Shown piece by piece: positions 5,144 to 24,184 of a stretch of 38,546 nt of DNA. How positions within the stretch are numbered: position 1 is the first letter of the stretch; each line of letters starts with the position of its first letter. The DNA comes from Chloroflexota bacterium. GTDB lineage: Bacteria; Chloroflexota; Anaerolineae; UBA4142. The stretch covers positions 1 through 38,546 of the forward strand of contig VGOB01000018.1 of the NCBI GenBank assembly GCA_016865935.1, given 5' to 3'. Below the pieces are notes generated by a model, which had not been told where the DNA came from, made no database searches, and saw nothing but the letters and a program-made list of their open reading frames with translations. Position numbers and translations under genes: made by a program.

Positions 5144-6076
5144 ATGCGTTCATTTGCTTTGCTGATCGTCATTGCGCTGATCGTCATCGCTTGTGAGATT
5201 CCTGCGATCACGATCTCGCTGGGCGCTACGCCCACCCCAACGGTCACTGCCACGCCGACGCTGAATCTGCAAGCGACAGCGGACGCGCAAGCCGCCGCCA
5301 CGGCGAACGCGCAAGCAACCGCCAACGCGCAAGCGACGGCGAACGCGCGCGCGACCGCTGATGCGCGCGCCACCGCCGACGCGCACGCGACCGCGAACGC
5401 GCACGCGCTTGCCACCGCGACCGCGCGCGCGTACGCGACGGCAACCGCGCAAGCACAGGCGACCGCCACCGCGCAAGCCCAAGCCACGGCGAATGCGCGC
5501 GCCGCCGCCACGGCGACGACGAATGCACTCGTCGCCGCGATCAACGCGATGGTGGACGCGCAGACCGCGCGACCGTACACCGTGAAAGAGGAAACGGTGC
5601 CCGGACAACCAGCCCCCTATGTCACTACCTACAACCCCCAACTTGACATGAAGAATTTTGCTGTCGAAGTCGAGGTCGTCAATCCTTCCGACGCAAAAGT
5701 CAATCCCTGGGATTTTGGGATCATCTTTCGGCGGGGCGGCAAAGCCGATCAGTATCGCCTGGTTCTGCGGTCCGACAAAACCTGGGACTTGATCTTGATT
5801 GACGAGAGTCTGGCAGATTCGGTGGATGGCAAACGCATCACGCAAGGCATCATCCCCAATCTCAACCTCGCGCCCGGCGGCACGAACAAATTCCGGCTGG
5901 TCGTCAAAGACACCAACGGTTTTTTGTTTGTCAACGACCAGTACATTGGAGCGATGAGTACCTCGGCGCGGCTGGGTTCTGGGTTCTTCGTGATCGGGAC
6001 TGGCTTTGCTCGGGATTCGATGTTCCCGGGCTTGAAACTCCACTTTAAGAACTTGAACATCAAGTGGCTGCCGTGA
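5144..6076 (+). CDS. Stalked lipoprotein with C-terminal jelly-roll-like domain
   Basis: About 310 residues, with GGAGG (5133-5137) ahead of the ATG. The signal peptide ends in a lipobox (LIVIAC, Cys17). Residues roughly 40-135 are a low-complexity Ala/Thr stalk of ATADAQA- and ATANAQA-type units. The rest (FAVEVEVVNPSDAK, WDFGIIFRRGG, QYRLVLRSDKTWDLI, FRLVVKDTNGFLFVNDQYIG) resembles the beta-sandwich of LamG/DUF1080-like domains, which often bind carbohydrate. It is probably anchored in the cytoplasmic membrane with the domain displayed outside. It has its own promoter and is followed by a terminator. Function unknown. Confidence 0.75.
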   Translation: MRSFALLIVIALIVIACEIPAITISLGATPTPTVTATPTLNLQATADAQAAATANAQATANAQATANARATADARATADAHATANAHALATATARAYATATAQAQATATAQAQATANARAAATATTNALVAAINAMVDAQTARPYTVKEETVPGQPAPYVTTYNPQLDMKNFAVEVEVVNPSDAKVNPWDFGIIFRRGGKADQYRLVLRSDKTWDLILIDESLADSVDGKRITQGIIPNLNLAPGGTNKFRLVVKDTNGFLFVNDQYIGAMSTSARLGSGFFVIGTGFARDSMFPGLKLHFKNLNIKWLP

Positions 6077-14523: not shown

Positions 14524-15981
14524 ATGAAAGCGACTGCCTTGTTGTTTATAACCGCGCTACTCGTGCTGGTTGCTTGTCAATCCGCGCCAACGGCAACCCC
14601 CGCACCTACGAACGCGCCTTTGCCAACCAATACGCTATTGCCGACTGCGACGCCGACATTGACGAACACGCCAACGGCGACGGCTACACCAACTGCAACT
14701 CCAACTGCTACGGCAACACCGAAGCCGACGATTGAAGGGATGAAAGACGTAACTTATCCCGACTCTAAACTTCTCGCAGGTGTCATTCGACCCTATGCCA
14801 AAGCAATAGGATTGGATTCGGAAAAGGTTCAAGTCTCGTACAAGCAATTCAAAGACTATCAAAGTAATCCGTTTGTTGTCGGTATATCGCAGGACGGAAC
14901 GCCGCTGGTAATTGCCTCGCAAAGCAAGGATGGGAAATGGGAATGGAGTGAAGCGACGCCAGGGAAAATGGCTGACAAGAAGGGGGTGAAAGTCGGCATA
15001 AGTTATGGGTATGTTCACGTTCCTGGTGTGATAGAAACATCGAAACAGTTTAATCTCAATTTTGTAAGTTACGACCTCTTCTGGAGGAATACAGAACCAG
15101 AACCTGGGAAAATTACATTTTCTTACCGCTATGCTGAATCAGAAAAGCAAGTCAGTCGCTCTGTTGAAGCGAATCAGGACATAATCGGTGGTCCCTTAAT
15201 AATGTGGGAGACATACCCAGAATGGTTTATCAATCTTGTGCGGAACACAGCTGTACCTATTGCAGAGAGGCAAGAAAAAGCAAGGCAGGCGGTAAAAGCA
15301 TATATTGTCTCCGTTATGTCCCACTTTAAGGGGAGAATCAACAAATGGGTTGTTGTCAACGAATTTCATCCTCTTTCAGGTGGTTTACATCCAGACGCGC
15401 TTCAAGAGATTTTGGGGGACTATCGTGAATATGCTTTTCAAGTTGCGCGGGAGGTTGACCCCGATGCGACTTTGATTTACAGCAATGGCAGCAATCACAA
15501 CCTGAAAACGGGCTGGGGTCTTAAAGACAAAGAATTCATTGGACAACTAAAAAGCAAAGGATACAAGGTAGCGTGGGGAGTGCAATTGCATCTTTTCGCC
15601 TCAAACGTACCGCCAAAAGAGGAATTGGTAGAACTCTTTACCAGTGCTGGTGTCCCTGTGTTTGTTCTTGAACATGACCTTGATATAAGAGATATCAGAC
15701 CTGATTCTCAAAAATTCAAGACGCCAGAAGAAATGACGAAAGAGAGATTTCGGGTTCAGGCGCAGATTGAAGCCGACGTTTTGCGTGCTGTTATTGAATC
15801 AGGCGTTTGCAACCACTACATATTCTGGAGTTTGGGAGACAAATACTCGTGGAAAGAGGAAAACCCCAAGTACTCTTGGTACTCCCCTGACGCAGACGCG
15901 ACCTTATTTACCGATGATATTCAGCCAAAACCAAATTACTATGCAGTCATGCGCGTTCTACTTGAACGGCTCGCCAAATAA
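14524..15981 (+). CDS. GH10-like glycoside hydrolase lipoprotein
   Basis: About 485 residues from ATG 14524, which gives a clean signal peptide and lipobox (LVAC, Cys18). A Thr/Pro/Ala linker (about 20-70) follows. The C-terminal 300 residues match GH10: WVVVNEFHP gives the acid/base Glu280 (family WDVVNE), and VPVFVLEHDLDI gives the probable nucleophile Glu383 (family TELD). GH10 enzymes are mostly endo-xylanases, but the altered motif around Glu383 means substrate is open. It interrupts the nuo operon, is AT-richer than the nuo genes, and lacks an obvious promoter. Likely acquired DNA. Confidence 0.75.
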   Translation: MKATALLFITALLVLVACQSAPTATPAPTNAPLPTNTLLPTATPTLTNTPTATATPTATPTATATPKPTIEGMKDVTYPDSKLLAGVIRPYAKAIGLDSEKVQVSYKQFKDYQSNPFVVGISQDGTPLVIASQSKDGKWEWSEATPGKMADKKGVKVGISYGYVHVPGVIETSKQFNLNFVSYDLFWRNTEPEPGKITFSYRYAESEKQVSRSVEANQDIIGGPLIMWETYPEWFINLVRNTAVPIAERQEKARQAVKAYIVSVMSHFKGRINKWVVVNEFHPLSGGLHPDALQEILGDYREYAFQVAREVDPDATLIYSNGSNHNLKTGWGLKDKEFIGQLKSKGYKVAWGVQLHLFASNVPPKEELVELFTSAGVPVFVLEHDLDIRDIRPDSQKFKTPEEMTKERFRVQAQIEADVLRAVIESGVCNHYIFWSLGDKYSWKEENPKYSWYSPDADATLFTDDIQPKPNYYAVMRVLLERLAK

Positions 15982-16961: not shown

Positions 16962-18497
16962 ATGATTCCCTGGCTCACTCTCTTAATCGCGATTCCGCTC
17001 CTGGGTTCGGTGATTACGCTCCTGCTCCCCAAGGGCGAAAAAGCGGACGCGACGATCAAATGGTTTTCGATTATCTGGAGTTTGATTCCGCTCGCGCTTG
17101 CATCGTACCTTTGGTTCGGCGGCATGTTCGATCCGAACAACGCGAAAATGCAATTCGAAGAGACGTACATCTGGATTCAAGCGATCAACGTGCGCTATCA
17201 CGTCGGCATTGACGGCTTGAGTATGCCGCTCGTCTGGCTCACGACGCTGCTGACGACGCTTTCGCTGTACTATTCCGCGAAGACGATTCACGAGCGCGCG
17301 CGCGAATTTTTCTTCATGTTCCTGCTGCTCGAAGCGGGAATGATCGGCGTCTTCGTCTCGCTCGACTTTTTCCTGTTCTACGTTTTCTGGGAACTCGGCT
17401 TGGTGCCGATGTACTTTTTGATCGCGATCTGGGGACACGCCGAAGACCGCCCGCTGTACTCGTCAATCAAGTTCTTCCTCTACACGCTCGCGGGTTCCGT
17501 CTTTATGCTGTTGGCGATTATCGCGATGTACATCAACACGAGCAGCGCGACGACGCCTGGCACATTCGACATCATCGAACTCGCGGCGCGGCGACCGTTC
17601 GCGAACGATTTCCTTTTCGCGACGCTCGCGTTCTGGGCTATCTTTCTCGCGTTCGCGATCAAAGTGCCGCTCTTCCCGTTCCACACCTGGTTGCCTGACG
17701 CGCACACCGCCGCGCCGACCGCTGGCTCGGTCATCCTCGCGGGCATCCTGCTAAAACTCGGCACGTACGGTTTCGTCCGCGTCCTCGTTCCGATTTTCCC
17801 GCAAGTGTTCACGGCGAACGCGACGATCATCGCGATTCTCGCCGCGATCTCGATTGTTTACGGCGCGCTCGCGGCGATGGCGCAAACCGATTTCAAACGA
17901 TTGATCGCGTACTCGTCGGTGAATCATATGGGCTATGTGATCCTGGGGATCGCGGCGGCAGTCGCGGCGGGCGGCGCATCGCTCACCGATCGCGCGATCG
18001 CGCTGAACGGCGCGGTGCTGCAAATGTTCAACCACGGCGTCATCACGGGCGCGCTCTTTTTCATCGTCGGTATGCTGTACGAACGGACGCACACGCGCGC
18101 CTTCTCCGAATTCGGCGGACTCGGCGCGAAGGTTCCCGTCTACGGCGCGATTCTGATGGTCGCGACGTTCGCGTCGCTCGGCTTGCCTGGGCTCGCGGGT
18201 TTCATCAGCGAGTTTATGGTCTTCCGCGGCGCGTTCGCAACGATGCCCTTGATCGCCGCGATCTCGGTTCTCGGCATCGTCTTCGGCGCGGCGATGTTGT
18301 TGTGGAAAGTGATCCAAAAAGTTTTGCTCGGCGCGTTCAACGAAAAATGGTCCGCGCTGAAAGACATAGAGCGATTTGAAGTCGTCACGCTCGCGCCGCT
18401 GATCTTCCTGATGGTGCTCGTCGGCGTCTATCCGTCGTCGGTGTTGGATACGATTAACACGCTTTCTGTAGCGATATTAAGTGTTCTCAAGTTTTAG
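16962..18497 (+). CDS. nuoM: NADH-quinone oxidoreductase subunit M (antiporter-like)
   Basis: 511 residues; GGAGG stands 8 nt before the ATG. It has about 14 helices. Key motifs are FYVFWELGLVPMYFLIAIWG with the conserved Glu, FAIKVPLFPFHTWLPDAHTA with the pump Lys, and AYSSVNHMGYVILGI. NuoM is the middle-distal proton-pumping subunit, normally directly after nuoL; here 3.3 kb of cassettes separates them. GC-rich like the other nuo genes. Confidence 0.97.
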   Translation: MIPWLTLLIAIPLLGSVITLLLPKGEKADATIKWFSIIWSLIPLALASYLWFGGMFDPNNAKMQFEETYIWIQAINVRYHVGIDGLSMPLVWLTTLLTTLSLYYSAKTIHERAREFFFMFLLLEAGMIGVFVSLDFFLFYVFWELGLVPMYFLIAIWGHAEDRPLYSSIKFFLYTLAGSVFMLLAIIAMYINTSSATTPGTFDIIELAARRPFANDFLFATLAFWAIFLAFAIKVPLFPFHTWLPDAHTAAPTAGSVILAGILLKLGTYGFVRVLVPIFPQVFTANATIIAILAAISIVYGALAAMAQTDFKRLIAYSSVNHMGYVILGIAAAVAAGGASLTDRAIALNGAVLQMFNHGVITGALFFIVGMLYERTHTRAFSEFGGLGAKVPVYGAILMVATFASLGLPGLAGFISEFMVFRGAFATMPLIAAISVLGIVFGAAMLLWKVIQKVLLGAFNEKWSALKDIERFEVVTLAPLIFLMVLVGVYPSSVLDTINTLSVAILSVLKF

Positions 18498-18593
18498 TTT
18501 GATAGTTGCATAGTTTGATAGTTGGATAGTTAGCATCAATTGCATCACGATCTAACTATCCAACTAGCCAACTATCAAACCACCCAACTAAAT
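18498..18593. repeat. 8-nt array AGTTTGAT with inverted arm
   Basis: Left arm units AGTTTGAT, AGTTGCAT and AGTTGGAT face right arm units CCAACTAT, CCAACTAG and ATCAAACC. The whole nuoM-nuoN gap is a long imperfect hairpin. Confidence 0.9.
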
Positions 18594-20093: not shown

Positions 20094-20155
20094 AGGATGA
20101 AGGCGGAAGGATGAATTTGGTTTTTCATCCTTCATCCCTCATCCTTCATCCTTTG
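20094..20155. repeat. AAGGATG / CATCCTT hairpin array
   Basis: AAGGATGAAGG and GGAAGGATGAA on the left are matched by TTCATCCTTCATCCCTCATCC and another CATCCTT on the right, with a TTGG-rich loop. It follows nuoN and could act as an attenuator or terminator, though no long T tract follows. Confidence 0.85.
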
Positions 20156-20740: not shown

Positions 20741-20999
20741 AAAGACCCGCGATCCCATTCCGAAGGAATTCAAAACGATCGAAGAGTTGCAAGAGTTTTG
20801 GGACACGCATAGCGTTGCAGACTACGACGACCAATTCAAGGATGTTCACTTTGATGTGGACTTGCGCGGTAGAACGAACCTGGTTGCGGTCGAGCCGACG
20901 CTGATGCAAGAACTCGTCAAGCGCGCTCACATGATGGGCGTTTCCACCGAAACGCTCGTCAACTTGTGGCTGAGCAGACAACTGCGCCAAACCGTATAA
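20727..20999 (+). CDS. BrnA/CopG-like antitoxin
   Basis: About 90 residues from ATG 20727, overlapping the toxin-like gene by 14 nt. IPKEFKTIEELQEFWDTHS and VADYDDQFKD are the conserved N-terminal part of this group. VAVEPTLMQELVKRAHMMGV and STETLVNLWL form a ribbon-helix-helix C-terminus that would bind DNA. Such antitoxins autoregulate, so the -10 region at 20426 is the likely target. Confidence 0.8.
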   Translation: MAKNKKTRDPIPKEFKTIEELQEFWDTHSVADYDDQFKDVHFDVDLRGRTNLVAVEPTLMQELVKRAHMMGVSTETLVNLWLSRQLRQTV

Positions 21000-21017
21000 A
21001 CCTCAAAGAGATTGACT

Positions 21018-21224
21018 ATGCCCACCCCGCCCCGCAACCCGTACATTGCAGGCAAAGCGCTGAACGACGCACGCGGTTTCTTTGGACGCGAGGATGTATT
21101 CCGCCTCGTCGAAACCGTGCTGTCGTCGCCCGACCAAAACTCCGTCGTCCTCTTTGGTCAGCGGCGCATTGGATCGATCCTGTTAGACTTGCAGACGATC
21201 TTGGATTATACAAGGATGTCCTGA
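21018..21224 (+). pseudogene. Truncated ATPase, cut at the Walker A motif
   Basis: 68 residues from ATG 21018. NPYIAGKALNDARGFFGREDV and SVVLFGQRRIG are the start of a large AAA/STAND ATPase of a type common in Chloroflexota, where the next residues should be GKTS. Here the P-loop reads GQRRIGSILLDLQ, as if six nucleotides coding Lys-Thr were lost, and the frame ends ten codons later. The junction lies at the palindrome GGATCGATCC (21172-21181). Without the Lys the P-loop cannot work, and the rest of the gene is absent. The stop overlaps the FRG start as TGATG. Confidence 0.75.
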
Positions 21225-22567
21225 TGGCAATCCCACTTCCAACACCGTGGCCAAGAGATTGGGAATTTCTCTTCAGAGCATCTGACCTCTTGTGGCCCAG
21301 AATCAGTGACTGCCCCGAAGTATTCTCGCGGCGATCCAAGTATTACGCTAGCATTGGTGATATTGCATATGGATGCAGTAAAACTGAAGCCATGCGTTTT
21401 AGTTCTGACATAGACTCGGTATATGCATGGATAGCCGAGAAATGGTGTCAGTTATTTGATCGGTGGATAACTAACCCAGAAAAATTCGTCTTTGATGATG
21501 GTTTTGCCGCTCTTTTCTTTGTCAGGGTTCTTTGGGCAGAACGAACCGTATTGTTACGCGGACAGTACGATAGCCGATGGAAACTGACTACGACATTGTT
21601 CCGTGCGAAACAAAAAGGTAGCGAATTCGCAAGGCGCGAATCTGAGCGCGCACAGCATTTTACGAGTGAAATTCTGAAACTGTCCATTGTGCAGTCAGCC
21701 TACCCAAGTGGAATAACTCCAGAACATCAGCAAGCATTGCTGCAACACTATGGTTTCCCGACAGATTTGATTGATTGTACTTTCTCGTTCGACATTGCTT
21801 TGTATTTTGCAGAAGGTGGATATGATAATCTGCCGTCGCCCAATCCAAACACAGATTGTGGAGCAATCTACGCCTTCCCGACAACATCAATTCCGAAGAA
21901 CGCTCTTGTAATCACTATTCCTCCTGCAATAATGAGACCGTCTCTTCAACAAGGAGCGTTCCTTTCAGGGTTATCCGATGAAGAGCGATCAAGACTTGAG
22001 AAAGCCAAGTTCGTATTTAAGCACCAGTCGTTGCCTGTCTGGAATGGACTAGGAGCGATCCCGTTTGCCGCCCCGATTGGATTGGGCAAGTATCTTTTTC
22101 CTGTTTCGGATCCAATTGCCACCATTGCAAGACCTTTTCGGGAGGCACTTTTCACTGATAACCCCACTGGTATTTGGCTCTCGGAGATCATGCATCGCTG
22201 TCTTGGGGAATCGTCAGGTGGAACGTCAACTGTGGACATGCAGTTGCTGATACAGATGATCAAAGGAGAACCATCGAATGCTAAAATAGCACTGAAGATA
22301 TTATGCGACGGGCTGCAGACGTCCACCGTACTCAGCGGTGAACCAATATCAGAAGCAACTGGTCACGAATTGGTTTGGCGGCGCCTGTTAGCCGCAATCT
22401 ACATTGCATACAGTATAGCGAACGATGTCACAGATCGAGTTCCTCCTGATCTCCAAGTCCTCGTTGATTCGAATCCAATAATCCTAGAATGTGCACAGTA
22501 TGAAGCTAAGCAAATTCTAGCCAATACTGAATGGCTGACTGAAAAACAGCTTCCTCGCTCCAAATGA
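21224..22567 (+). CDS. FRG-domain protein
   Basis: About 447 residues from ATG 21224. FRG hallmarks are TVLLRGQYDSRWKLTTTLFR and LLQHYGFPTDLIDCTFSFDI followed by ALYFA. The domain is named for its Phe-Arg-Gly motif; here the first motif reads LLRGQ. FRG proteins are of unproven activity and often occur in variable, defence-like regions. The gene is AT-richer than its neighbours. It overlaps the ATPase fragment at its start and murE by 4 nt at its end (ATGA, 22564-22567). Likely transferred. Confidence 0.8.
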   Translation: MAIPLPTPWPRDWEFLFRASDLLWPRISDCPEVFSRRSKYYASIGDIAYGCSKTEAMRFSSDIDSVYAWIAEKWCQLFDRWITNPEKFVFDDGFAALFFVRVLWAERTVLLRGQYDSRWKLTTTLFRAKQKGSEFARRESERAQHFTSEILKLSIVQSAYPSGITPEHQQALLQHYGFPTDLIDCTFSFDIALYFAEGGYDNLPSPNPNTDCGAIYAFPTTSIPKNALVITIPPAIMRPSLQQGAFLSGLSDEERSRLEKAKFVFKHQSLPVWNGLGAIPFAAPIGLGKYLFPVSDPIATIARPFREALFTDNPTGIWLSEIMHRCLGESSGGTSTVDMQLLIQMIKGEPSNAKIALKILCDGLQTSTVLSGEPISEATGHELVWRRLLAAIYIAYSIANDVTDRVPPDLQVLVDSNPIILECAQYEAKQILANTEWLTEKQLPRSK

Positions 22568-24126
22568 ACCTCCCCTCCCTCCTCCGCGCTCTCCCCGCGT
22601 ACGAAATTCACAACGAACGCAACGTCGAAATCACGCGCATCACGCCCGACTCACGCCAGGTGATCCCCGGCGCGCTTTTCGTCGCGATTCCTGGCGTCAA
22701 CGTAGACGGCGCGCACTTCATCCCCGACGCGCTCTCTCGCGGCGCAATCGCCATCGTCACGGAATCCAACGATCCAACGATTCAACTATCCAACTATCCA
22801 ACTATCCTTGTTCCTAACGCTCGATCTGCATTGGCGCATTTGAGCGCCGCGTGGCACGACTTCCCCTCGCGCAAACTCCGCGTCGTCGGCGTCACCGGCA
22901 CGGATGGCAAGACGACAACGGCGCGCCTCATCGCGTCGATTCTCGAAAGCGCGGGGCACAAGGTTGGCGCGATTTCAACGATCGGCGCGACGACTGGCGA
23001 TCAGGAAATTGACACGGGCTTGCACACGACGACGCCCGACGCGCCCGACGTGCAGCGCTACCTCGCGCAGATGGTTGATGCGGACGCGGAGTACGCCGTG
23101 ATCGAAGCAACTTCCGAAGGACTCGCGCAGCGCCGCCTCGACGCGGTGGAATTCGACATCGCGGTCGTCACGAACATCACGCACGAGCATTTGTATTATC
23201 ACAAGACCTGGGAAAATTATCGCGACGCGAAGGCAATGCTCTTTCGCGCGCTCGCGACGTCGTACCGCAAACCGCGCACCGCGAAAGTTGCCGTGCTGAA
23301 CGCGGACGATAACGCGCGCGGGGTGTTTGACTACTTGCGCGCGATTGAAGTAGAGGAGCAAATCGTCTATTCGACCGACGACCGACGACGGACGACCGAT
23401 GGCAGCAATTTAGAGTCATCGGTCATCGGTCATCGGTCATCGGTCTGCATTTTTGCGCGCGCCATCCACCACTCCCCACACGGACTCCGCTTCACCATCG
23501 TCACGCCGCACGGCGAATTGGAAATCGAATCGCCGCTGATCGGGCGGTACAACGTGTCCAACATTCTCGCGGCGATTGGCGCGGGGCTGGCGCGGCGCGT
23601 GCCGTTCGACGCGCTGCGCGAAGGGATTGCGCGCGTGCGCGGCATCGTCGGGCGGATGGAAGTTCTGCAGAGCGATCCTTTCACAGTGATCGTAGATTTC
23701 GCGCACACGCCGAACGCGCTGCGGAACGCGCTAGCGACCGCGCGCGAACTGGCGCACAATCGCGTGATCGTCGTCTTTGGCTGCGCGGGTTTGCGCGACG
23801 TGCAGAAACGCGCGCTGATGGGCGAAATCGCGGGGAAACTCGCGGACAAGATTATCGTGACTGCCGAAGACCCGCGCACCGAATCGCTCGACGCGATCAA
23901 CGCGCAAATCATCGAGGGCTTGGAACGCGCGGGGCGACGCGCGCGCGACGATTATTTCGTCGTGGATGATCGCGCGCGCGCCATCGCGTTCGCAATCGAA
24001 ATGGCGCGCGCGGGCGATGTCGTCATCGTTTGCGGCAAGGGGCACGAGCGCTCGATGTGTTTCGGCGCGACGGAAATTCCGTGGAGCGATCAGGACGCGG
24101 TGAGTCAAGCGAAAAGTAAAAAGTAA
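22564..24126 (+). CDS. murE: UDP-MurNAc-tripeptide synthetase (MurE)
   Basis: 520 residues, overlapping the FRG gene by 4 nt. Mur ligase motifs: GVTGTDGKTTTARLIASIL (ATP loop), TNITHEHLYYH, NADDNARG, VIVDFAHTPNALRNAL and VIVCGKGHERSM. It adds the third amino acid to the peptidoglycan stem peptide in the cytoplasm. The specificity motif, DNPR in diaminopimelate-adding enzymes, reads EDPR (residues 435-438), so the amino acid added is uncertain; ornithine, known in some Chloroflexota, is possible. Two repeat arrays are read in frame (around residues 71-82 and 270-294), lengthening loops. Start overlap suggests expression coupled to mobile genes. Confidence 0.93.
   Translation: MNLPSLLRALPAYEIHNERNVEITRITPDSRQVIPGALFVAIPGVNVDGAHFIPDALSRGAIAIVTESNDPTIQLSNYPTILVPNARSALAHLSAAWHDFPSRKLRVVGVTGTDGKTTTARLIASILESAGHKVGAISTIGATTGDQEIDTGLHTTTPDAPDVQRYLAQMVDADAEYAVIEATSEGLAQRRLDAVEFDIAVVTNITHEHLYYHKTWENYRDAKAMLFRALATSYRKPRTAKVAVLNADDNARGVFDYLRAIEVEEQIVYSTDDRRRTTDGSNLESSVIGHRSSVCIFARAIHHSPHGLRFTIVTPHGELEIESPLIGRYNVSNILAAIGAGLARRVPFDALREGIARVRGIVGRMEVLQSDPFTVIVDFAHTPNALRNALATARELAHNRVIVVFGCAGLRDVQKRALMGEIAGKLADKIIVTAEDPRTESLDAINAQIIEGLERAGRRARDDYFVVDDRARAIAFAIEMARAGDVVIVCGKGHERSMCFGATEIPWSDQDAVSQAKSKK
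22776..22808. repeat. 8-nt CAACTATC array inside murE
   Basis: About three copies of CAACTATC in a row, read as TIQLSNYPTIL. The unit is the same as in the right arm of the nuoM-nuoN array (18551-18590). Confidence 0.88.
23373..23447. repeat. Inverted heptamer arrays inside murE
   Basis: GACCGAC units (left) and CATCGGT units (right, four copies) are inverted relative to each other and enclose a short loop. They are read in frame as STDDRRRTTDGSN and then SSVIGHRSSV. Typical MurE lacks this stretch. Confidence 0.9.
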
Positions 24127-24184
24127 AAAGCTAAAGGTGAATCGTGTGACACTTTTAGCTTTTTACTTTCGCCTTTTCACTTTT
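24111..24184. terminator. Hairpin between convergent murE and mltG
   Basis: Left arm AAAAGTA heptamers ending AAGCTAAAGGTG (24112-24139); right arm CACTTTTAGCTTTTTACTTT and further T-rich units (24150-24184). It is built of repeats but placed as a two-way terminator, with A and T runs on both sides. Confidence 0.7.

Follow-up and report, generated by a model that had tools for sequence, protein, structure and literature searches.

The murE gene of this uncultured Chloroflexota bacterium contains two tandem arrays of 7- or 8-nt units that are read in frame into two loops of the enzyme, and the same two loops hold an array in nearly every species of the family, usually with another unit, as judged from aligned sequences. 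Similar arrays are dispersed through the genome, are often laid out as inverted copies, are translated in frame, are concentrated within MurE at these two loops, and occupy positions that species share while the unit is changed. We consider it likely that the murE stretches are members of dispersed 7/8-nt array families, often arranged as inverted hairpin pairs, which are quickly replaced and which, where they fall in coding DNA, are tolerated in enzyme loops.

From species to species, two loops in a conserved enzyme and a single one in PheT are occupied by peptides that derive from different repeats. These natural replicates allow a direct test of how protein arises from repeat DNA and at what point selection sets in. 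The annotated proteins of these genomes include many repeat-derived segments, which is a caution. There is also a mechanistic puzzle, in that one unit is found at unlinked loci and is then swapped between sister species.

The window analysed is a stretch of 38,546 nucleotides, the entire contig C18 of its genome. In what follows G000 is the genome of the window and G012 is a sister species; the samples used for genome-wide counts were 832 kb for G000 and about 1.04 Mb for G012.

THE murE GENE AND ITS ARRAYS

murE, a cell-wall gene that is probably essential, encodes UDP-N-acetylmuramyl-tripeptide synthetase at 22564..24126 on the forward strand, in an intact open frame of 520 aa whose start is overlapped by 4 nt by an FRG-domain gene (20966-22567). 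In a profile search the product scored 494 bits against TIGR01085 (cut-off 257), and this was the one gene in the whole genome to pass that cut-off; weaker Mur-ligase matches, below it, are found on contig C19. All three Mur ligase domains are present (PF01225, PF08245 and PF02875), and the AlphaFold model (pLDDT 89.7) has the MurE fold, with a TM of 0.85 to E. coli MurE 1e8c by Foldseek.

Site 1 is a direct array of the 8-nt unit ATCCAACT at 22764..22807, forward strand (5.5 copies, 91% matches, TRF score 67). It codes for residues 67-82 (ESNDPTIQLSNYPTIL), a loop of the N-terminal domain between strands 63-66 and 80-82. Site 2, on the same strand, has two arms. The left arm is a 7-nt array of CGACCGA at 23372..23399 (4.0 copies by TRF), coding for STDDRRRTTD, residues 270-279, and the right arm is a 7-nt array of GTCATCG at 23415..23445 (4.4 copies, 100% matches by TRF), coding for ESSVIGHRSSV, residues 284-294. 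As an inverted repeat (I2) the arms run from 23373-23401 and 23417-23445, are 86% complementary, and enclose a hairpin spacer of 15 nt (23402..23416, forward strand). RNA folding of 23360-23460 gave -49.1 kcal/mol with a z of -6.7. An Rfam search of the window returned zero matches, so no known RNA family is represented there.

A sequence-only reading of this DNA had described two in-frame arrays in murE. Both are there, with slightly shifted limits (its units were CAACTATC and CATCGGT), and its peptides TIQLSNYPTIL and STDDRRRTTDGSN agree with the translation, to which the right arm adds LESSVIGHRSSV, absent from its list. It was also right that repeat DNA has been turned into protein loop with the gene intact, the arrays being translated within a single-copy MurE that scores above the TIGR01085 cut-off. 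Its proposal that 7 times 3 and 8 times 3 keep frame fails on the actual copy numbers (5.5, 4.0 and 4.4), none of which is a multiple of 3. Frame is preserved by the length of the whole insert, partial units and spacer counted. Because a 7-nt array gives one identical heptapeptide whichever of the three frames is read, the multiples-of-three argument is needless, although total length must still keep frame.

Both arrays fall within poorly conserved loops, where the confidence of the model drops; loop position and low confidence suggest that these may be surface loops. The lowest pLDDT of the whole model is at site 2 (65 for block 271-280 and 50 for block 281-290); block 71-80, at site 1, has 79 between flanking blocks of 91 and 96, and further dips occur near 431-440, 491-510 and in a few other places. 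Among 28 aligned homologues, zero columns are invariant from A61 to V83 and zero from Y269 to N330. Mean pairwise identity of the family MurE proteins is 0.21 at site 1 and 0.15 at site 2; two stretches elsewhere in the gene have 0.81 and 0.76.

THE MurE LOOPS ACROSS SPECIES

Periodicity at lag 7 or 8, with a threshold of at least 12 of 14, was found in the family at site 1 in 9/12 genomes and at site 2 in 10/11 comparable ones, against 10/416 windows elsewhere in the gene. Over 81 murE genes, sites 1 and 2 account for 8.8% of the length and hold 22 of the 27 internal period-7/8 arrays; the binomial value for this (3e-19) is no more than indicative, since it counts related genes as if they were independent. 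More distant Anaerolineae also have arrays at these loops. In the murE of L141, neither site shows a clear array. That typical MurE lacks the second array, as the sequence-only reading put it, stands for MurE in general and fails for this family, most of which has arrays at both loops.

The units are mostly different from species to species. At site 1 they include ATCCAACT, ATCACGC, TGTCCAC, AACCACCC, CCCCAAT, CCACTTA and CCAATCT. Within the genus (three genomes) the two-arm layout of site 2 is kept; the right-arm unit is TCATCGG in G000, and both of its congeners have TCAGCGG there. The sequence-only reading had named homologues sharing identical stretches as its refutation, and the outcome was the opposite: most homologues do have the stretch, but built from another unit. 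In the murE of G011 (L143) an N gap with a frame break falls exactly at site 2, probably because the repeat led the assembly astray.

One pair of relatives points to selection. At site 1 the codons of L134 and L135 differ by 9 synonymous changes and 0 non-synonymous ones (175/118 for the whole gene), and the encoded peptide is identical; at the rate of the gene as a whole such a pattern has a chance of about 0.01, for a pair chosen after seeing the data. Changes that are synonymous only suggest that some inserts may be under constraint and not neutral, and purifying selection may be acting here on a peptide that came from an array.

THE ARRAY POPULATION OF THE GENOME

The observation of repeats within a gene was sound, and its restriction to murE was too narrow: such repeats occur throughout the genome, many of them within genes, and those of murE are one example. 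The G000 sample contains 368 arrays of period 7 or 8 (4.4 per 10 kb), of which 279 have period 7 and are dispersed over many loci. Unit classes number over a hundred, and the chance that two random period-7 arrays share a class is 0.039, against about 0.00085 under uniform classes. Copies of one family have units in common, but unrelated spacers and flanks. Neighbouring arrays no more than 60 nt apart form 94 pairs, 54 of which are inverted copies of one unit and 0 direct, a direct count lowered by the repeat finder, which merges adjacent direct copies. A strict polarity, purine-rich on the left and pyrimidine-rich on the right, was considered for the 54 inverted pairs and rejected (34 vs 10, with 10 even); there is a bias only.

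With gene limits taken from a home-made gene caller, 100 arrays lie wholly inside genes, 173 are wholly intergenic, and the remainder are at gene edges; some of the intragenic hits are GC-rich coincidences of coding DNA and not true arrays. By our own reading the array-bearing proteins include FtsY, HypF, an MtaB/MiaB-like protein and a uroporphyrinogen methylase-synthase. The HypF-like protein has several arrays (L164:13300-13432 and 14799-14881), the latter position having in the sister species a hairpin with a different unit. Only 51/100 intragenic arrays have a unit class also seen in the sampled intergenic arrays, so that some may be local births. Stop-free units are read in the sense direction in 92/100 intragenic arrays and in the antisense direction in 59, which is weak evidence of stop avoidance because an open frame is a precondition for the gene call. 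A terminator-like excess between convergent genes was absent, intergenic arrays occurring at 1.5 per kb there and at 2.7 between tandem genes. Y1 transposases were tried as the array mover and rejected: the genome has two Y1_Tnp genes above cut-off, no link between them and the arrays was found, and no spreading enzyme was identified.

Three further arrays of the window (none assigned to a strand) illustrate the population. An inverted array of AAAAGTA and CTTTTTAC at 24107..24182 spans the murE stop, between the convergent genes murE and mltG; this is inverted repeat I1, with arms of 33 nt that are 85% complementary, and is of the same repeat kind as the murE arrays. The inverted 8-nt array ATCCAACT/ATAGTTGG at 18495..18590, at the start of nuoN, uses the unit of murE site 1; the hairpin array found at this place in the sister species is another, CAAGTAGA/ACTTGTCT. 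The TTCATCC array that TRF reports at 20124..20153 is one half, the right arm, of an inverted AAGGATG/TTCATCC element starting farther upstream; in G012 the site is empty (7 nt). The interval from nuoN to murE is longer in G012 (about 4.3 kb), so its content differs between the sister species. The window also contains, at 5279-5516, a long imperfect 18/24-nt repeat of the GCGCACGCGACCGCC type.

ORTHOLOGOUS SITES AND UNIT POOLS

Between two species of the genus, the position of an array often appears more stable than its unit when mapped by flanking sequence. Flanks placed 56 G000 array sites in G012; the array there is built from another unit at 27 of them and from the same or a near unit at 13, and at 16 none was detected. 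For intragenic sites the orthologue has an array in 14/22 cases against 1/80 array-free control sites (Fisher 7e-11), and for intergenic and edge sites in 26/34 against 8/26 (0.0006). Several intergenic sites have an inverted hairpin in both species with unrelated units, for example AAGGATG/TTCATCC and GATTTAG/AAATCAT, and at several orthologous intergenic hairpins the units of both arms differ together between species, in a comparison of present-day arrays. Near-empty sites also occur, as at 20124-20153 of the window and at L088:19575; no target-site duplication was apparent by eye at the few clean ones. One case is nested, with one array inside another (L159:3825).

A second enzyme shows the same pattern. 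The pheT gene of G000 (L121:1465-1530) has the unit pair of murE site 2, GACCGAC/TCATCGG, in frame. Heptamer-like repeats were seen by eye, unscored, in one PheT loop in all 10 aligned genomes with a near-full-length pheT, with mostly different units; to the eye they are strong in most genomes and degenerate in L191. G001, represented by the first 201 residues only, was excluded from this comparison. Where G000 has TCATCGG, G013 has TCAGCGG at the corresponding right arm in both murE and pheT.

In several cases the units at murE and pheT seem to be drawn from the species' own dispersed pool, going by counts of three-copy runs. CCACTTAx3 is limited to G009, where CCACTTA is the unit of site 1 and site 2 of murE and recurs in pheT as a shorter run. 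For CATCGGTx3 there are 25 matches in G000 and 1 in each of two other genomes, and ATCACGCx3 occurs 14 times in G012, 0 times in G000 and 1 to 5 times in seven others. ATCCAACT is commonest in G000 and is found in four other genomes. The site-1 unit of G013, as CACTGTCx3, is rare in every genome, so the own-pool rule is not universal.

CONTROLS

For 438 kb of sequence, an order-2 Markov control gave zero arrays of period 7 or 8 at a TRF score of at least 40, against 113 + 31 in the real DNA, and 100 kb of E. coli K-12 had zero at a score of at least 36. The 25 occurrences of CATCGGTx3 in the G000 genome fall to 0 in a reversed control. That the arrays are artefacts of assembly or binning is scarcely credible. 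In its favour, the genome is a draft of 322 contigs, and the N gap in the murE of G011 falls precisely at site 2. Against this, the arrays (28-44 nt each) fall short of typical read length, the frame remains open, and different arrays return at both loops in independently assembled genomes, a replication that already contradicts the idea.

ORIGIN OF THE ARRAYS

On the reading that we favour, the murE stretches would be members of dispersed short-array families whose prevailing units differ by species. Arrays would arise and be replaced at a high rate, most of them intergenic or at gene edges, and coding arrays would survive where the protein tolerates them, in loops such as MurE 67-82, MurE 270-294 and one in PheT. 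Since a unit of 7 or 8 nt runs through three frames, an array is open in all or closed in all, and the coding arrays retained would be those with stop-free sense units and a total length that keeps frame. Growth would be by slippage, the arms could be kept alike via template switching within the hairpin, and units may transfer between loci via copying or conversion. The murE inserts are probably passengers, not functional parts of MurE. A stronger version, which we regard as unlikely, is that an active process rewrites hairpin arrays at fixed positions, with position and layout inherited and the unit swapped wholesale from a species-specific pool, in intergenic DNA and enzyme loops alike; this would be an array-copying or templated array-writing mechanism of a new type.

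Three other accounts have to be set against dispersed, quickly replaced array families. A discrete mobile palindromic element, similar to the Rickettsia palindromic elements or to a MITE, that inserts whole and in frame and then decays would explain the inverted two-arm layout, the near-empty counterparts of window 20124 and L088:19575, and the similarity of the murE and pheT peptides of G000. It is nevertheless rather unlikely, given the unrelated flanks and spacers within one family, the many unit families, the arrays that are single-armed, and the failure to find an evident target-site duplication or a matching transposase. Independent slippage, in which every unconstrained loop builds up an array by itself, starting from a chance seed and with no exchange between loci, is suggested by the fact that the loops are the least conserved stretches (identities of 0.21 and 0.15 against about 0.8 in two others), by the half of intragenic arrays whose unit class was not seen among the sampled intergenic arrays, and by the prospect that period-7 arrays could be a general product of slippage. 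But GACCGAC/TCATCGG is common to the unlinked murE and pheT of G000, CCACTTA is common to both murE sites and the short pheT run of G009, and 54 inverted neighbours against 0 direct need something more; slippage by itself is largely contradicted and distinctly unlikely. It is very improbable that the inserts are functional, with the mRNA hairpin or the loop peptide regulating or stabilising the murE product. The hairpin of site 2 (z -6.7) is strong also in two congeners and in L136, and the synonymous-only changes between L134 and L135 point the same way, but the hairpin is absent in several relatives (z of -0.4 in L135, 0.2 in L139 and 0.9 in L142), on which ground a conserved regulatory hairpin was rejected, and the peptide differs in nearly every species, with L141 lacking a clear array at either site.

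COMPARISON WITH KNOWN REPEATS

Heptamer simple repeats are known in cyanobacteria as STRR. Other dispersed heptamers are GGGAATC of Xanthomonas and GGGGA(C/T)T of Nostoc (PMC4692102) and TAACTGA of Beggiatoaceae (PMC4679880). The present arrays resemble these in being 7-nt tandem arrays dispersed in bacterial genomes; those reports each concern one unit, mostly intergenic, whereas here there are more than 100 unit classes, hairpin pairs, and recurrent use in conserved genes (PMC4692102, PMC4679880).

Rickettsia palindromic elements (Ogata et al. 2000, 2002) are described as about 150 bp long and each with a conserved peptide (PMC10969869). They share with our arrays the presence of palindromic repeat DNA in frame within unrelated genes, apparently tolerated (PMC10969869), a feature seen here in murE and pheT and, over 832 kb, in about 100 arrays inside genes. 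What distinguishes the present arrays from the elements as there described is that they are runs of 7/8-nt units whose spacers and flanks are not conserved, that the unit of a site differs by species, and that no conserved element of about 150 bp is found. The repeats of the Borg archaeal elements are likewise fast-evolving tandem repeats in and between genes that give new disordered protein segments at recurrent hotspots (PMC9879509). Those in Borg ORFs are direct, with unit lengths always divisible by three (PMC9879509), unlike the units of 7 and 8 nt found inside genes here, commonly as inverted pairs.

REP sequences, which go with RAYT transposases, are described as palindromes of 20-40 bp with a GTAG/CGTC tetranucleotide tag at one end (PMC3733652); like our arrays they are dispersed short palindromes, but ours are made of tandem 7/8-nt units. 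Inverted repeats inside genes occur as coding palindromes in Nematomorpha mitochondria (PMC6649704), and in yeast genes template switching between inverted repeats homogenises both arms (PMC8604942), a known process (PMC8604942, PMC7202029). Both cases are eukaryotic and, in the abstracts, are not described as tandem 7/8-nt arrays (PMC6649704, PMC8604942). We found no earlier report of intragenic heptamer arrays in Chloroflexota in the library searched. The combination of non-triplet hairpin arrays, the same loops of conserved enzymes, and a unit changed between species is new with respect to the literature searched.

OTHER FEATURES OF MurE

Within residues 203-224 of MurE the usual HLDYHG is replaced by HLYYHK, and several family members have HLYFHK, HLYYHQ or HLDFHK. 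MurE enzymes that add meso-DAP bear the substrate motif DNPR. The protein encoded at 22564-24126 has EDPR at residues 435-438 in place of this motif, and E435, D436, P437 and R438 do not vary among the 28 Chloroflexota homologues aligned. A MurE bearing EDPR may add an amino acid other than meso-DAP.
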